Origin: an uncultured Muribaculaceae bacterium | GTDB lineage: Bacteria > Bacteroidota > Bacteroidia > Bacteroidales > Muribaculaceae | Assembly (NCBI GenBank): GCA_947625935.1 | Contig: CANQQE010000001.1 | Coordinates: 124,001 to 188,000, forward strand | Direction: 5' to 3' | DNA length: 64,000 bases | Shown: positions 4,776-12,985 of the stretch, piece by piece | How positions within the stretch are numbered: position 1 is the stretch's first letter | Layout: every line of letters starts with the position of its first letter | The notes under the pieces: model-generated | Seen by the model: the letters and a program-made list of their open reading frames with translations, nothing else | Told to the model about the DNA's origin: nothing | Databases searched by the model: none | Made by a program: the position numbers and the translations under genes

Positions 4776-5471
4776 CTACTGTGAGTCTACTGTGAGCATA
4801 TAGCCGAATCCGCGCTGATTAATGATAAAGATTGCGGAGTCTTGGCGGAGCAAACGACGCAGTTTATGAATATAACCGTGTAGGGAGTTGCGGTTGCTGG
4901 GGTCATCACGTTGCCATACGGCAATCATCAGCTCGGAAGCATCGACAGTTTTGCCGATGTTCACGGAGAGCCGTTCAAGTATCTTTGACTCGAAGTGTGA
5001 CAATTCTGTTGATTTATTCTCATACGAAAGAGTCTGGGTTGTCACATTGAACGTGTAGGCACCTATCTGATATTTCACATCCTTTTGCCGGTTTACACCG
5101 TATCTTTTCAGAAGGGATTTGATTCTCACTATCAGTTCGCGGAGCTCAAATGGCTTTTTCAAGTAATCGTTGGCTCCGATTTCAAAACCCTCCTCCACAT
5201 CGTCAATCGTGCTTTTGGCAGTCAGGAAAAGCAATGGAACCTCGGGAGACATTTTCCTTATCCCCTTGGCCATCATGAATCCGTCCATGCGTGGCATCAT
5301 CACATCGGCGACAATAATATCGGCACCTTCAGACCGGTATTTATCCAGTCCTTCCACACCGTCGGCCGCAGTAATTACGTCATAGCCGAGACTGCGCAGC
5401 GTATCTGCGACAATCAGAGTGAGGTCAGCCTCATCTTCTACAATGAGCACCTTATTTCTCATTCCTGCCAT
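4776..5471 (-). CDS. Response regulator, OmpR/PhoB type, RprY-like
   Basis: DNA-binding response regulator (231 residues). The receiver domain occupies about residues 5-120, with acidic pocket VEDEAD, phosphoacceptor Asp in IIVADVMMPRMDG, conserved Thr in LFLTAKS and Lys in YLKKPFE. The C-terminal winged helix (about 135-228) ends with the RGFGYML turn typical of the family. It overlaps the 3' end of the sensor kinase gene by 20 bp, so it is translated with it; the ATG at 5462 (MRNKV) is an alternative start. Sequence and order resemble RprX/RprY of Bacteroides fragilis. A tandem repeat 60 bp upstream of the kinase gene may be its binding site. Confidence 0.9.
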   Translation of the reverse strand: MAGMRNKVLIVEDEADLTLIVADTLRSLGYDVITAADGVEGLDKYRSEGADIIVADVMMPRMDGFMMAKGIRKMSPEVPLLFLTAKSTIDDVEEGFEIGANDYLKKPFELRELIVRIKSLLKRYGVNRQKDVKYQIGAYTFNVTTQTLSYENKSTELSHFESKILERLSVNIGKTVDASELMIAVWQRDDPSNRNSLHGYIHKLRRLLRQDSAIFIINQRGFGYMLTVDSQ

Positions 5472-6879
5472 ACTTTATTGTGAATACCGAACCTTCTCCC
5501 TCCTTACTCCTGGCCTCAATATCCCATCCCATTTTATCAAGAATACTCTTGACGTAATAAAGCCCTATACCGTAACCGCGAACGTCTTGACGGTTGCCAT
5601 GAGGAACACGGTAAAACTTGTTGAACAGAAAAGGAATTGATTTTTGCGGAATGCCTATCCCGTTGTCTTTTACCGAAATAGCACCATTGTCATTAGAAAC
5701 CGTTATTGTCACGCTATCACCGGAATATTTGATTGCATTGTCAATCAGATTATTCAACACATTGCCGAGGTGTGTCTTGTCTGCCTCGACAGACGCATCG
5801 TCAGACATATTCACGTTGATGACAATCTCTTTCTCCATTCTCATTCGCTGGGCAGTTGCAATTTCCTCCACAAACGGGCGCAAAAGAATTGTTTCGGATT
5901 TGAGTTTCATCGTTTTCCGCCGTTCCATACTCATGGCGAGGATATTCTCCACCAGTTCGCCGAGACGTTTAAGCTGTTTGTTAGCGATCTTGAGGTATGT
6001 CACTTTTTTCTGCGGGTCATTGTCGGTGTCATAATTGAGCAGGGCATCGTTGGCGGAATAGGCGATGGCGATAGGTGTTTTCAGCTCATGCGTCATGTTG
6101 CTGACGAAATCATCCTTCATCTCCTCGATTGTCCGCATCTTCGACACTGTGTGAAGCAGATACCAAAACGCCAATATAAAAGCGACCAAAAGAAGAAATA
6201 CCGTTATTATTACCCCGAGCATCTGTGAGAGTATATGGCGTGTGAGCGGCGTCATATATGCGCGATAATACATATCAGCCTGCGGGTTGAAGCATAATGA
6301 AAAGACATCGTAACCCGACTGTTTTTTAGGCACATGGACATTCCCTCTAATAACATTCCCTTTCGAGTTCACAACTTCAACAGCGAGGAAATCCGGATAG
6401 ATTTTTCGGTCAGCAAGACGTTTTAATAGAATACTATCCATAATCGCCAGATTGAAATCTACGAATGGATCCATGTTTTCGTGCATCTGCTGACTCATCT
6501 CGTTGACCATTTGATTTGTATATGACCTGTCGCGGCGTAACGGGGTTTTATTTACTGTAGTCTTACCATCTTTATTCTCAGATGTTGTGATGAAATTTCC
6601 ATCTGGGTCTTTTACTCCTGACACACCTCCCCGTTGATTTGAATAAATTGAATCACCATTTTCCCCTGCGGCTTTCTTAGCCGCTTCTGCCGCACGATTG
6701 GCCCGGTCAGATCGCTCCCACATATCATCAATGTCAGCATCGGCAATAGCTGTCATCACCTCACGCGCCACATCATCACGAATTGAACTATAAAGACTGA
6801 CAAGGTAATAGACATTGCAGCCGAAAATTACCGCAATGACAATAATAAACATGGTCGATATTGCTTTAAAACGCTTCAT
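5452..6879 (-). CDS. Sensor histidine kinase, RprX-like
   Basis: Inner-membrane sensor kinase of 475 residues. TM1 is at about 8-30, a periplasmic sensor region of about 185 residues follows, and TM2 (VIITVFLLLVAFILAFWYL) is near 220-242. The HisKA motif MTHELKTPIA holds the phosphorylated His; the ATPase domain shows NVLNNLIDNAIKYSG (N box), VKDNGIGIP (G1) and RGYGIGLYYVKSIL (G2). The periplasmic part contains an unusual Ala/Arg-rich then Gly/Asn-rich stretch (about 55-115). First gene of a two-gene operon with the response regulator and divergent from the outer-membrane receptor gene at 7033. Confidence 0.92.
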   Translation of the reverse strand: MKRFKAISTMFIIVIAVIFGCNVYYLVSLYSSIRDDVAREVMTAIADADIDDMWERSDRANRAAEAAKKAAGENGDSIYSNQRGGVSGVKDPDGNFITTSENKDGKTTVNKTPLRRDRSYTNQMVNEMSQQMHENMDPFVDFNLAIMDSILLKRLADRKIYPDFLAVEVVNSKGNVIRGNVHVPKKQSGYDVFSLCFNPQADMYYRAYMTPLTRHILSQMLGVIITVFLLLVAFILAFWYLLHTVSKMRTIEEMKDDFVSNMTHELKTPIAIAYSANDALLNYDTDNDPQKKVTYLKIANKQLKRLGELVENILAMSMERRKTMKLKSETILLRPFVEEIATAQRMRMEKEIVINVNMSDDASVEADKTHLGNVLNNLIDNAIKYSGDSVTITVSNDNGAISVKDNGIGIPQKSIPFLFNKFYRVPHGNRQDVRGYGIGLYYVKSILDKMGWDIEARSKEGEGSVFTIKYGRNEK

Positions 6880-6885
6880 GAAGCG
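6872..6885. repeat. 14-bp perfect palindrome over the rprX start codon
   Basis: CGCTTCATGAAGCG is a perfect palindrome centred on the kinase ATG (6879-6877). It could be an operator or form a hairpin that masks the start codon in the mRNA; chance cannot be excluded. Confidence 0.45.
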
Positions 6886-6930
6886 AAGTTACTAATATTC
6901 CCGCATACAATCGTTTAGGCTCGCTGATAT

Positions 6931-6968
6931 TTAAGACTAAATAAGGGAGCGTTTAAGACTAACTAAGG
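6931..6968. promoter_or_regulatory. Tandem response-regulator-like boxes
   Basis: A 16-nt sequence, TTAAGACTAAATAAGG at 6931-6946, recurs with one mismatch at 6953-6968. The start-to-start distance is 22 bp, two turns of the helix. Each copy holds two TAAG steps about 10 bp apart, so four half-sites face the same way. Such spaced direct repeats are how OmpR/PhoB-family regulators bind. They lie between the two-component genes and the receptor gene, just upstream of the receptor's -33 element. Confidence 0.65.
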
Positions 6969-6975
6969 TTGGAGA

Positions 6976-7008
6976 TTGCAGATGTGGAGCCACACGCCTG
7001 TAATTTTG
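6976..7008 (+). promoter_or_regulatory. Promoter of the receptor gene
   Basis: TTG at 6976-6978 and TAATTTTG at 7001-7008, about 22 bp apart, fit the Bacteroidetes -33/-7 pattern. It lies 25 bp before the ATG at 7033 and directly downstream of the tandem boxes. Confidence 0.6.
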
Positions 7009-7032: not shown

Positions 7033-9090
7033 ATGGATATGAAACAAGCAGTCACATTCATCATTGCCTTGCTCTATGCCTTATACGCTACGGCTCAGAC
7101 GGAAATGCCTGATACTATCTCCGCTCGACAGCTCGATGAGGTTGTAGTCAAAGGCGAAAAACCTCAGGTAAGAGCAGAGGACGGCGTAATGGTCGTTGAC
7201 TTACCTGGAATAGTCAGGGACAAGCCTGTAAATAACATACTCGAAGCTCTTGGCTATCTGCCGGGCGTGATAGATAACAACGGCATGATAGGTCTGGCAG
7301 GTACATCCAGCGTAACCATCATTCTCAATGGCGAACTGACCGATATGCCGCTTCAGAATCTTTATCAGCTTCTTTACACTACTCCGATCGACAGGCTGAA
7401 GAATGTAGAGGTGATGTACTCGGCTCCGGCAAAATATCACGTCAACGGTGCCGTAATCAACGTGGTGCTGAAAACGCCGACGCCTCTCGACGGGCTGCAA
7501 GGACAAGTGAGAGCCGGCTACAATCAGGCACACTATGGGTCGTATGTCGGTGCGCTTGCCGCCACATACGCAGTCAAGGACTGGACGTTCGACCTTGACT
7601 ATGGTATTTCGCGCACCAGATCATGGAGTCGTGAGGAAACATGGTCGAATCATCTCCTCGACGGTCAGCGTACGGTGATTGAGGACGATATGCGCCGCAT
7701 TACCCGAAACCTGAGCAATACTATCTTTGCGTCTGCCTCATGCAAGACATTGAAACTGACCTACAACGGGCAGATCACCTCGAATCAGAAAAGCTTCGGT
7801 CTCTCATCCGGCACTCTCGGCAGTTTCACAAACGACCATAAGATGTTGTCGCCCATCAACTATCATAACATCGCCTTGCGTTATGTCGCTCCTTTCGGCA
7901 TGACAATAGGCGGCGACTACACCTGTTATTCTGAAAACCGTTCCCAGTCTTTGTTTAAGGATACTGATTATCTGCTTGGCTCGGAAAACCGTCAGGACAT
8001 AAACCGATGGCATGTGTATGTCGACCAAGAGCATCAGTTCGGCAAATGGCAGCTTAACTATGGAGTGGAGTATCAGCACTCTAAAGACCACAGTTCGCAA
8101 CACTATGGCATTGTCGGTATGGCCGATAATCCTGATTTCGATGATATTCTCAACGAGGATGTGGCAAGTTTTTACGTCGGCACCCAACGGTCGTTCGACT
8201 GGGGACTGTCATTCAATGCCTCGGCAAAGGGCGAATGTTATCACAACAAATATCAGCACAACTGGAATCTTATCCCTCAGCTTGGAGCCACATATTACAA
8301 AACGCCTAAAAGCATATTCCAACTCAATTTCGACGCCCAGCGCATTTATCCATCATATTGGGAACTGCATGGCGGTACGAGCCACATCAACGACTACTCG
8401 ACAATCATCGGTAATCCAAAGCTGCAATCGTATATCCAATATGACGCACAGTTCAACTATATTCTGAGACAGAAATATGTAGCCACATTGTATTTTCAAT
8501 ATGGTGACAAAGCGACGGTGCAGTTACCTTACCAGTCGCCCGATGCCCTGAATCTGATATATCAGACCATCAACATGAACTACAAACGAGTTGTCGGGCT
8601 TAATCTTCATGCGCCTTTCGGAGCTGGATATATCTGGAACGCCACGGCCACAGCCAATGTGTTCAATCAGCGGGAGAAAGCAGACAATTTCCATGACATC
8701 AGCTTTGACAACAGCAAGTGGATATTCTATGGTTCTCTTACCAATTCATTCAAGTTCAGCCAGAATTGTCCGGTATCCTTGTCGGTTGATTTCAGCTACA
8801 TATCTCCTTCATTGCAAGGTATCGCCGACCTGTCGGCTATATGGAAAATCGACGCCGGAGTAAAATGGCAGTTCGGAAAGAAGCGTTGTTGTGAGCTTGA
8901 TTTGAAAGCGGATGATATATTCAATAAATGGTCACCCACAATGACAATCCGCCATGCAGGTCAGGACTACCGAATGAAAGTTCTCGACATGGCCCGCAAC
9001 CTCAAAATGACATTCATCTGGCGATTCAACGGATTCAAACCCAAAGAGAACAACAATATCGACACGTCACGTTTTGGAACCGGAAAATGA
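7033..9090 (+). CDS. TonB-receptor-like outer-membrane beta-barrel protein
   Basis: Outer-membrane protein of 685 residues: signal peptide (MKQAVTFIIALLYALYATAQ from the second Met), a plug-like domain over about 25-150 (LDEVVVKGEKPQ, NILEALGYLPGV, DRLKNVEVMYSAPAKY) and a C-terminal barrel of the OMP_b-brl_3 / carboxypeptidase-like family. It lacks the N-terminal carboxypeptidase regulatory domain common in relatives and has no SusD partner next to it, so a glycan-uptake role is not supported. The barrel is rich in alternating aromatic strands. Substrate is unknown. Divergence from rprX and the shared tandem boxes suggest control by the RprY-like regulator. Confidence 0.85.
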   Translation: MDMKQAVTFIIALLYALYATAQTEMPDTISARQLDEVVVKGEKPQVRAEDGVMVVDLPGIVRDKPVNNILEALGYLPGVIDNNGMIGLAGTSSVTIILNGELTDMPLQNLYQLLYTTPIDRLKNVEVMYSAPAKYHVNGAVINVVLKTPTPLDGLQGQVRAGYNQAHYGSYVGALAATYAVKDWTFDLDYGISRTRSWSREETWSNHLLDGQRTVIEDDMRRITRNLSNTIFASASCKTLKLTYNGQITSNQKSFGLSSGTLGSFTNDHKMLSPINYHNIALRYVAPFGMTIGGDYTCYSENRSQSLFKDTDYLLGSENRQDINRWHVYVDQEHQFGKWQLNYGVEYQHSKDHSSQHYGIVGMADNPDFDDILNEDVASFYVGTQRSFDWGLSFNASAKGECYHNKYQHNWNLIPQLGATYYKTPKSIFQLNFDAQRIYPSYWELHGGTSHINDYSTIIGNPKLQSYIQYDAQFNYILRQKYVATLYFQYGDKATVQLPYQSPDALNLIYQTINMNYKRVVGLNLHAPFGAGYIWNATATANVFNQREKADNFHDISFDNSKWIFYGSLTNSFKFSQNCPVSLSVDFSYISPSLQGIADLSAIWKIDAGVKWQFGKKRCCELDLKADDIFNKWSPTMTIRHAGQDYRMKVLDMARNLKMTFIWRFNGFKPKENNNIDTSRFGTGK

Positions 9091-11951: not shown

Positions 11952-12924
11952 TTAGCGAAAATGTTTGAAAAATTCGACAGTAGGGGTTGAGAAATTCAGT
12001 TTCTCACGAGGTCTACAATTTAACTTGGCTTGTATTTTCCTGATAAGCCCGAGGTAACAGTCGAGAAGTCAGTTCCTTTTGGGATATACTGTCGAATGAG
12101 TTTGTTGGTATACTCGACTAACCCTTTCTGCCGCGAGCAGTATAAGTCGGCAAAATATACGATTACGCCATTAAGACCTTTGGTTATCAGCTGATGAGCC
12201 GAGAACTCGCTGCCATTATCCGTGGTTATGGTAAGAACACCCGTGAGCCAGTAGGCATACAGGAGCCTGATGACGGCTTTGTCAATCGCCTTGGCGTTCT
12301 TTCCATGCGGCAGTTTCTCGATGATGCAGTATGATGTGTTTCTTTCGGTGAGAACGAGGATTGCCCCGTATCCACCCTTCCCGATGATCAGATTCATATC
12401 CCAGTCCCCGAAACGCGATCCGTCAGCCTCTTTGGGTCTTTGGTGTATACTTGTTTGGTTTGGGTTATTCGTAGCTTTGGTCGGTTTTAGCCCCTTTTTC
12501 GACGTTCTGTTATACTCCCCCCTTGCCTGGTGTTGGCAAGCAGTTTGCCGCTTTTGTCGGCGTGGATGTAGTTGTGGATTGTCTGTTTCGAGATGCGCGT
12601 CCCTTCTTTGGCCAAGGTGCCGACAATCTGGGCCGGAGGCCATCGCTTTTCCGTAATCCACTGCTCTATACGCCATAACAACAGCCGTGGCGTCTTGTTG
12701 TGCGGCTCGCCATGACTTCGGCGTTCTTCGGTCATGGCCTGCGCTTTGGCGTCATTATAACCGCCACGCGCAGTGGTGTTGCGTTTGTACTCGCGGCTGA
12801 CGGTTGACGGGTGTTTGCCTATCTCTGCCGCAATTTCTTTCCGCGTTCTCTCTTTGCGAGTGCCGCGGTTTTGGTGTTCCACGAAAAGGTGGTATCTTTG
12901 CGCTGAGGTTAATTGGTTGTACAT
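11952..12924 (-). pseudogene. IS30 transposase, broken by two frameshifts
   Basis: Three fragments in three frames together make one IS30 transposase. The first (ATG at 12924, MYNQLTSAQRYHLF) carries the helix-turn-helix AAEIGKHPSTVSREYKRN and runs to LLANTRQGG near 12513. There a run of six G requires a -1 shift into the frame with the DDE core: FGDWDMNLIIGKGG, TITTDNGSEF and KGLVEYTNKLIRQYIPKG. That frame stops at 12020, but a further -1 shift near 12045 restores the normal C-terminus IRKIQAKLNCRPREKLNF, STPTVEFFKHFR, ending at 11952. Two separate single-base losses argue for decay rather than programmed frameshifting. Several DDE-domain residues look intact. Confidence 0.85.
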
Positions 12925-12926
12925 AA

Positions 12927-12985
12927 GCAATACAAAATTAGTTAATCTTGGAGAGACTTCGGTCTCCTTTTTTGTTTTGTATTGC
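12927..12985. repeat. Nested stem-loop in the transposase leader, with a UUCG hairpin
   Basis: GCAATACAAAA (12927-12937) pairs with TTTTGTATTGC (12975-12985), ending 2 nt before the transposase ATG. Inside is GAGAC-TTCG-GTCTC (12953-12966) followed on the plus strand by C and six T, which reads as an intrinsic terminator against antisense transcription. Confidence 0.6.

Follow-up and report, generated by a model that had tools for sequence, protein, structure and literature searches.

The question raised by this locus is what reads two nearly identical short repeats that lie between the genes of a two-component system (TCS) and a divergently transcribed gene for an outer-membrane protein. The features concerned, all within the window (i.e., the whole 64-kb stretch of DNA that was analysed), are as follows:

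4776..5471, minus strand: OmpR/PhoB-type response regulator, 231 aa (Response_reg, Trans_reg_C), the presumed binder of the boxes, not RprY
5452..6879, minus strand: sensor histidine kinase, 475 aa (HisKA, HATPase_c)
6872..6885, no strand: 14-bp palindrome CGCTTCATGAAGCG that covers the start codon of the kinase gene, taken to be fortuitous
6884..6891, minus strand: -7-like element of the kinase gene, read on this strand as TAACTTCG; the ATG is 4 bp away and the first TAAG 48 bp
6931..6946, plus strand: distal box TTAAGACTAAATAAGG, with TAAG half-sites at 6932 and 6942
6953..6968, plus strand: promoter-proximal box TTAAGACTAACTAAGG, with TAAG half-sites at 6954 and 6964
7001..7008, plus strand: TAATTTTG, -7 element that serves the gene for the outer-membrane protein; the last TAAG is 37 bp away
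7033..9090, plus strand: OMP_b-brl_3 outer-membrane beta-barrel protein, 685 aa, the predicted target

The reading that we favour, with high though not complete confidence, is that the boxes are the operator of the adjacent OmpR/PhoB-type regulator, through which it would activate the outer-membrane gene and probably its own TCS genes as well. The regulator matches both domains of that family above cut-off (PF00072 at 98.7 bits and PF00486 at 50 bits), and the divergent gene product matches PF14905 (OMP_b-brl_3) at 147.3 bits against a cut-off of 27. The first-pass annotation had called the latter gene a receptor gene, a label kept here for short. OMP_b-brl_3 is the only match of the protein, and 'receptor' is thus a putative label: the Plug domain (PF07715) of TonB-dependent receptors gave no match in the window protein at E <= 0.001; the distant protein of locus L176 has a sub-threshold Plug match only. 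Elsewhere in the window, at 12020-12930, two overlapping ORFs in different frames look by eye like a single IS30-like transposase, possibly frameshifted.

The repeats themselves were found as first described. TTAAGACTAAATAAGG and TTAAGACTAACTAAGG differ by one mismatch and lie 22 bp apart, at 6931 and 6953, and they hold four same-facing TAAG half-sites with steps of 10, 12 and 10 bp. Same-facing half-sites every ~10-11 bp characterise OmpR/PhoB-family operators, and the steps seen here are 10-12-10 in the window and 10-10-11 in the related arrangement that we call type B. No other TAAG-N6-TAAG pair occurs on either strand of the window. In the genome scan that had been proposed, only the two boxes match TTAAGACTAANTAAGG without mismatch; allowing up to 2 mismatches gave five places, the other three with 2 mismatches each, versus 10 for the reversed control.

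The system had also been taken as RprXY-like, and a close tie to RprY was not supported. With the RprY equivalog model (NCBIfam NF051850, cut-off 370 bits) the window regulator scores 203.3 bits and four of its relatives score 190-229 bits, while the genome's own RprY (L234) lies on another contig and scores 452 bits. We therefore reject RprY as the identity of the window regulator. No TAAG chain was found upstream of the kinase gene beside the genome's own RprY, and on present evidence the boxes are no RprY site. Of the earlier prediction of a specific box and target for an RprY-like regulator, the conserved box and the target survive, now assigned to the adjacent regulator, but the close tie to RprY does not. 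There is some likeness to the RprXY system of Bacteroides and Porphyromonas, in that RprY is the best-scoring NCBIfam model for the window regulator and the order is the same; the difference is that the separate RprY of this genome lacks the TAAG array of the window system. Targets named for RprY in the parts of two reports available to us are chaperones, ahpC and nqr (PMC3646045, PMC7002350), and a term count in PMC3646045 gave zero for 'motif', 'consensus' and 'binding site'.

Non-conservation of the repeats in relatives had been named as the outcome that would sink the proposal, and the repeats proved to be conserved. A scan with the receptor protein alone retrieved 35 loci, and the box is present in all 24 that hold the receptor start and its upstream DNA, in tandem in 23 of them (L054 has three copies, and L062 one). 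Nine of the other 11 loci begin inside the receptor gene or within ~80 bp of its matched part; the remaining two, L063 and L070, include upstream DNA, but the receptor is represented in them by its C-terminal part alone. In L063 no TCS or box lies near this fragment, whose start is missing, and the L070 boxes are those of a different TCS pair. Scanning with the regulator yielded 114 matches in 94 of 298 family genomes (E <= 1e-50). DNA was fetched for 95 of these matches and not for 19, and 88 loci could be assessed by script; the other seven are truncated at a contig end or were left unresolved by the script, and L202 and L151 among them show boxes. A TAAG-N6-TAAG pair lies upstream of the kinase gene in 87 of the 88, of which 83 were found by the script at once and four (L138, L143, L199, L221) on listing pairs in the same stretches. 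The sole miss, L232, has no kinase match. The fetched loci, which include L138-L194, fetched for matching the box pattern, contain 160 such pairs within 450 bp of a kinase start and 17 elsewhere. The tandem pattern occurs in 57 of the 298 family genomes, at one place each, against 0 for the reversed control, and many of the 95 regulator loci also belong to these 57 genomes.

The genes on the far side of the boxes vary. OMP_b-brl_3 was matched in the divergent genes of L176, L185, L203, L221, L224 and L228 and in the second gene of L226, and that of L219 has carboxypeptidase-like domain matches only. No Pfam match was obtained for L204, L211, L215 or L222, for the tested ORFs of L138 and L230, or for the first gene of L226. 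A lipoprotein-like ORF, judged by eye, comes first in L225, L226, L227, L229, L230 and L231. In L163 a phage-type integrase gene (454-1701, by Pfam) adjoins the kinase-side box, and so does an ORF with a similar N-terminus in L196 (1-653). As for distribution, a receptor orthologue is present in genome G000 but not in G001-G003, of the same genus, where the best matches have E values of 4e-9 and 6e-7 in two genomes and the third has none (G001 is only 68% complete); in G195, of another genus, the regulator is 91% identical. Judged from these sequences the distribution is patchy, possibly through transfer.

The position of the boxes relative to the promoter is also conserved. Among 44 nonredundant tandem (type-A) loci, a set that includes loci found through the box pattern itself, information content is 1.0-1.95 bits over the 15 columns of each box and does not exceed 0.6 bit between +5 and +36. 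A -7 element with consensus TAATTTTGC starts 37 bp after the last TAAG, with 7 of its 9 columns reaching 1.25-1.8 bits; the Bacteroides-type -7 promoter is given as TAnnTTTG in the part of PMC7366714 that we consulted. The -33 region is weak, with no column above 0.6 bit 11-14 bp after the last TAAG. The boxes had been said to abut the -33 element in the position of an activator, and the activator-like place upstream of the divergent gene is borne out, but a strong -33 is not. Individually, the promoter-proximal TAAG lies 36-37 bp from the receptor-gene -7 in 42 of 55 type-A loci, the window included; in 11 the -7 pattern as written found nothing, and two give other figures (in L139 the pattern matched a nearer TA, and in L158 the -7 is 37 bp from the fourth TAAG of that locus). 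Four loci, L199, L200, L201 and L202, have a middle step of 11 or 13 bp instead of 12 and still keep 36-37 bp, so the promoter is the reference point of the spacing. Of 16 type-B loci, 14 have their half-sites at 46, 36, 26 and 15 bp from the -7; in L205 the 15 bp are counted from the fourth TAAG, and L228 does not keep the type-B distance. The half-site chains of L166 and L185 are broken.

These figures bear on the idea that the repeats are neutral, left by a recent tandem duplication or carried over by shared descent. Duplications of a 22-bp unit do occur, as the three copies in L054 illustrate. Against this stand the steep fall in information just outside the boxes and the promoter distance that stays fixed across 11- and 13-bp middle steps, which contradict neutrality, and we regard it as very improbable. 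Since the repeat is near letter-perfect, and at a fixed promoter distance, in dozens of relatives, the boxes very probably are a landing site through which the neighbouring signalling system controls the outer-membrane gene.

The sign of that control is a separate matter, and the same regulator might bind the boxes and repress the gene. Conserved sites alone do not separate activation from repression, the two type-B half-sites nearest the -7 (26 and 15 bp) overlie the usual -33/spacer region, and RprY of P. gingivalis, a distant relative, is reported as a repressor of chaperone genes in the portion of that report available to us (PMC3646045). The type-A operator, however, stops 33 bp before the -7 and leaves the core promoter uncovered, the -33 is as weak as expected of an activator-dependent promoter, and both main types keep a TAAG pair at ~36-37 and 46-47 bp from the -7. 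Repression thus seems improbable to us, and activation remains the preferred reading.

On the kinase side, where relatives were searched with a loose pattern, the distance between the first TAAG and a -7-like element is 47-49 bp in 53 of 70 loci and 36-38 bp in 14, with no such element matched in three. In the available part of a start-site map of B. thetaiotaomicron, two sensor kinases are among the rare mRNAs with leaders of <10 nt (PMC7366714); by analogy, the short leader suggested by the -7-like element 4 bp from the kinase ATG would fit. The palindrome CGCTTCATGAAGCG, reported earlier as covering the kinase start codon, is present at 6872-6885, but as a regulatory element it is rejected: perfect palindromes of 14 bp or longer number six in the window and 3.8 on average in 20 shuffled versions, none lies within 25 bp of the kinase start in any of 70 related TCS loci, and the match is most likely due to chance. 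Upstream of the kinase gene in L041, L043 and L058 and in the receptor leader of L202, an extra ~48 bp with a hairpin-like ACCACGAAG...CTCGCGGT was seen by eye.

A link between the boxes and this regulator in particular is suggested by a tree of 94 regulators, on which the operator types form clusters; the labels are our own (type C and the g17 group by locus list, g17 by lineage). Type A is accounted for by 7 changes, where shuffling gives 30.7 on average; the corresponding figures are 6 and 15.1 for type B and 1 and 9.7 for type C (support 98/85). All five labels together need 15 against 49, a figure that is partly circular because g17 was labelled by lineage and type C by hand. Common descent also contributes to the clustering. 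The recognition helix differs in one type: the type-C regulators printed read N-R-L-H, whereas in the others printed the residue ahead of L or M is S (N-S-L-H, K-S-L-H, R-S-L-Q, and R-S-M-D in the genome's RprY). Where printed, the type-C boxes are CTAAGACTAACTAAG, with one difference in L224, and those of L242 and L243 are TTAAGACTAACTAAG; type C is one clade, and the match of helix and box therefore counts as one event.

It may still be asked whether a different DNA-binding protein reads the boxes, the TCS being a mere neighbour. Boxes lacking an adjacent TCS occur in L165 and L241 (both of G082), in L062, and in L271 of another family. The two G082 loci are a receptor gene that has both boxes (L165) and a gene for a 274-aa protein that has boxes (L241), neither with a TCS beside it. 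The 274-aa protein is 41% identical to an ORF of L204 that starts 289 bp from the kinase start, where an earlier short ORF is not excluded, and the L241 box is 36 bp from a -7, counted on the printed sequence. The boxes of G082 are type A but its closest regulator homologue is type C, so they are read by some other regulator or are relics; judged by sequence, G082 counts against a strict one-to-one link of regulator and box. The genome of L062 appears, by matching hits, also as G168, in which the kinase end with boxes is on one contig and the one-box receptor on another, and the assembly yielded no close regulator. A foreign reader is nonetheless hard to square with the TAAG pair in 87 of 88 regulator loci, including those of regulators of ~44-48% identity with other divergent genes, with a layout that follows the regulator tree (on our own labels), and with head-to-tail half-sites every 10-12 bp, which suit OmpR/PhoB-type regulators. 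We consider it quite unlikely, more so than repression, and retain the adjacent regulator as the reader. Natural splits were also seen: in L182, L183 and L188 two genes stand between TCS and receptor gene, with a box on both sides. These are a DUF3791 and a DUF3990 gene (L182:4126-4853, by Pfam), and the same short and long ORFs recur, by sequence, at L183:4107-4846 and L188:2487-3214.

The adjacent gene also appears to be the only target. In 52 genomes picked as carrying the system, the box 15-mer with up to 1 mismatch has 110 sites, of which 97 are at TCS loci by a hand tally on positions (one, G077:C519, assigned by distance to an unfetched regulator), three are in G082 and 10 are scattered. 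These 10 one-mismatch sites are fewer than the 32 of the reversed control, and a larger regulon was rejected.

We thus propose that the two boxes together form one operator of the adjacently encoded response regulator, whose winged-helix domains, arranged head-to-tail, would read the four TAAG-centred half-sites (10-12-10 bp) on approximately one face of the DNA. Upon a presumed signal, the phosphorylated regulator, placed just upstream of a weak-33 promoter, would activate the outer-membrane protein gene. From the same sites it would probably also act on the opposite kinase-regulator promoter, whose -7 element nearly touches the kinase start codon. The result would be a local switch, with one operator and one adjacent target in this genome.

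Tandem operators of PhoB and OmpR consist of head-to-tail half-sites about one helical turn apart, located upstream of or replacing a weak -35/-33. Judged by its sequence, the candidate operator is of this already known kind, with the same head-to-tail half-sites at about one helical turn beside a weak -33; it differs in half-site sequence, in its Bacteroides-type -7 promoter, and in being common to two divergent promoters. The best comparison is HP1043/HsrA of Helicobacter pylori, described in the part of PMC5253667 available to us as an OmpR-type regulator with direct repeats of TTTAAG, whose centres are 11 bp apart and which, being one helical turn apart, are taken as read by a dimer on one face. 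The half-site core of this TTTAAG-N5-TTTAAG arrangement matches that of the window, but the step within a box is 10 bp here. By the same partial source, HP1043 is an orphan with several targets and a less conserved second repeat (PMC5253667), whereas the window system, in another phylum, has four half-sites with steps of 10-12-10 (or 10-10-11), one local target, and an adjacent kinase.

Among the literature matches listed, judged by title and abstract start, none concerned this TCS-OMP system, and the exact 15-mer did not occur in the literature text searched. To our knowledge, which here is an impression and not a survey, few binding sites of ordinary two-component regulators are known in gut Bacteroidales. 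The present analysis gives a precise predicted operator, promoter geometry, and target for a system with regulator relatives in 94 of 298 family genomes and traces in other families. An OMP_b-brl_3 protein becomes approachable through its predicted switch. Together with the recognition-helix difference that accompanies one of them, the operator types make up a ready natural set on which specificity could be studied.

Outside the family, DNA around 12 regulator homologues (41-48%) was fetched, and a divergent OMP relative accompanies four of them (L256, L259, L261, L262). Three of these carry a 10-10-11 array alternating TAAG and TAAC and the fourth one pair, and the TAAG-N6-TAAG of the family is absent from all four. 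The OMP relative was not seen in the other eight, of which L264 is too short to tell. In G401 an OMP gene lacking a TCS (L271) has a TAAG...TAAC...TAAG...TAAC array. Similar arrays thus occur at receptor-like genes in other Bacteroidales families. The exact 15-mer was found in one of 291 other-family genomes of a 295-genome sample of the order, against 14 reversed-control matches over the sample; the exact word is therefore family-specific and not above chance outside. The out-of-family form TAAGACTAAATAACANTNNNTAAG, at up to 2 mismatches, has seven places in the 295 genomes against 23 control matches, a control not split by mismatch number, so it is not enriched as a whole and only its three exact places carry weight, two at TCS-OMP pairs and one upstream of an OMP gene. 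Tentatively, and with more doubt than confidence, one may imagine a Bacteroidales-wide module in which a TCS and an outer-membrane barrel gene are joined by a portable TAA(G/C) operator at a fixed promoter distance; the operator would travel with its targets, flank both sides of split pairs, and be retuned with the recognition helix, and the barrel might shape the kinase signal and so close a loop. One minor observation concerns L271, where an ORF upstream of the OMP gene with four half-sites (L271:1500) appears by eye to encode an AraC-type regulator, not a TCS.
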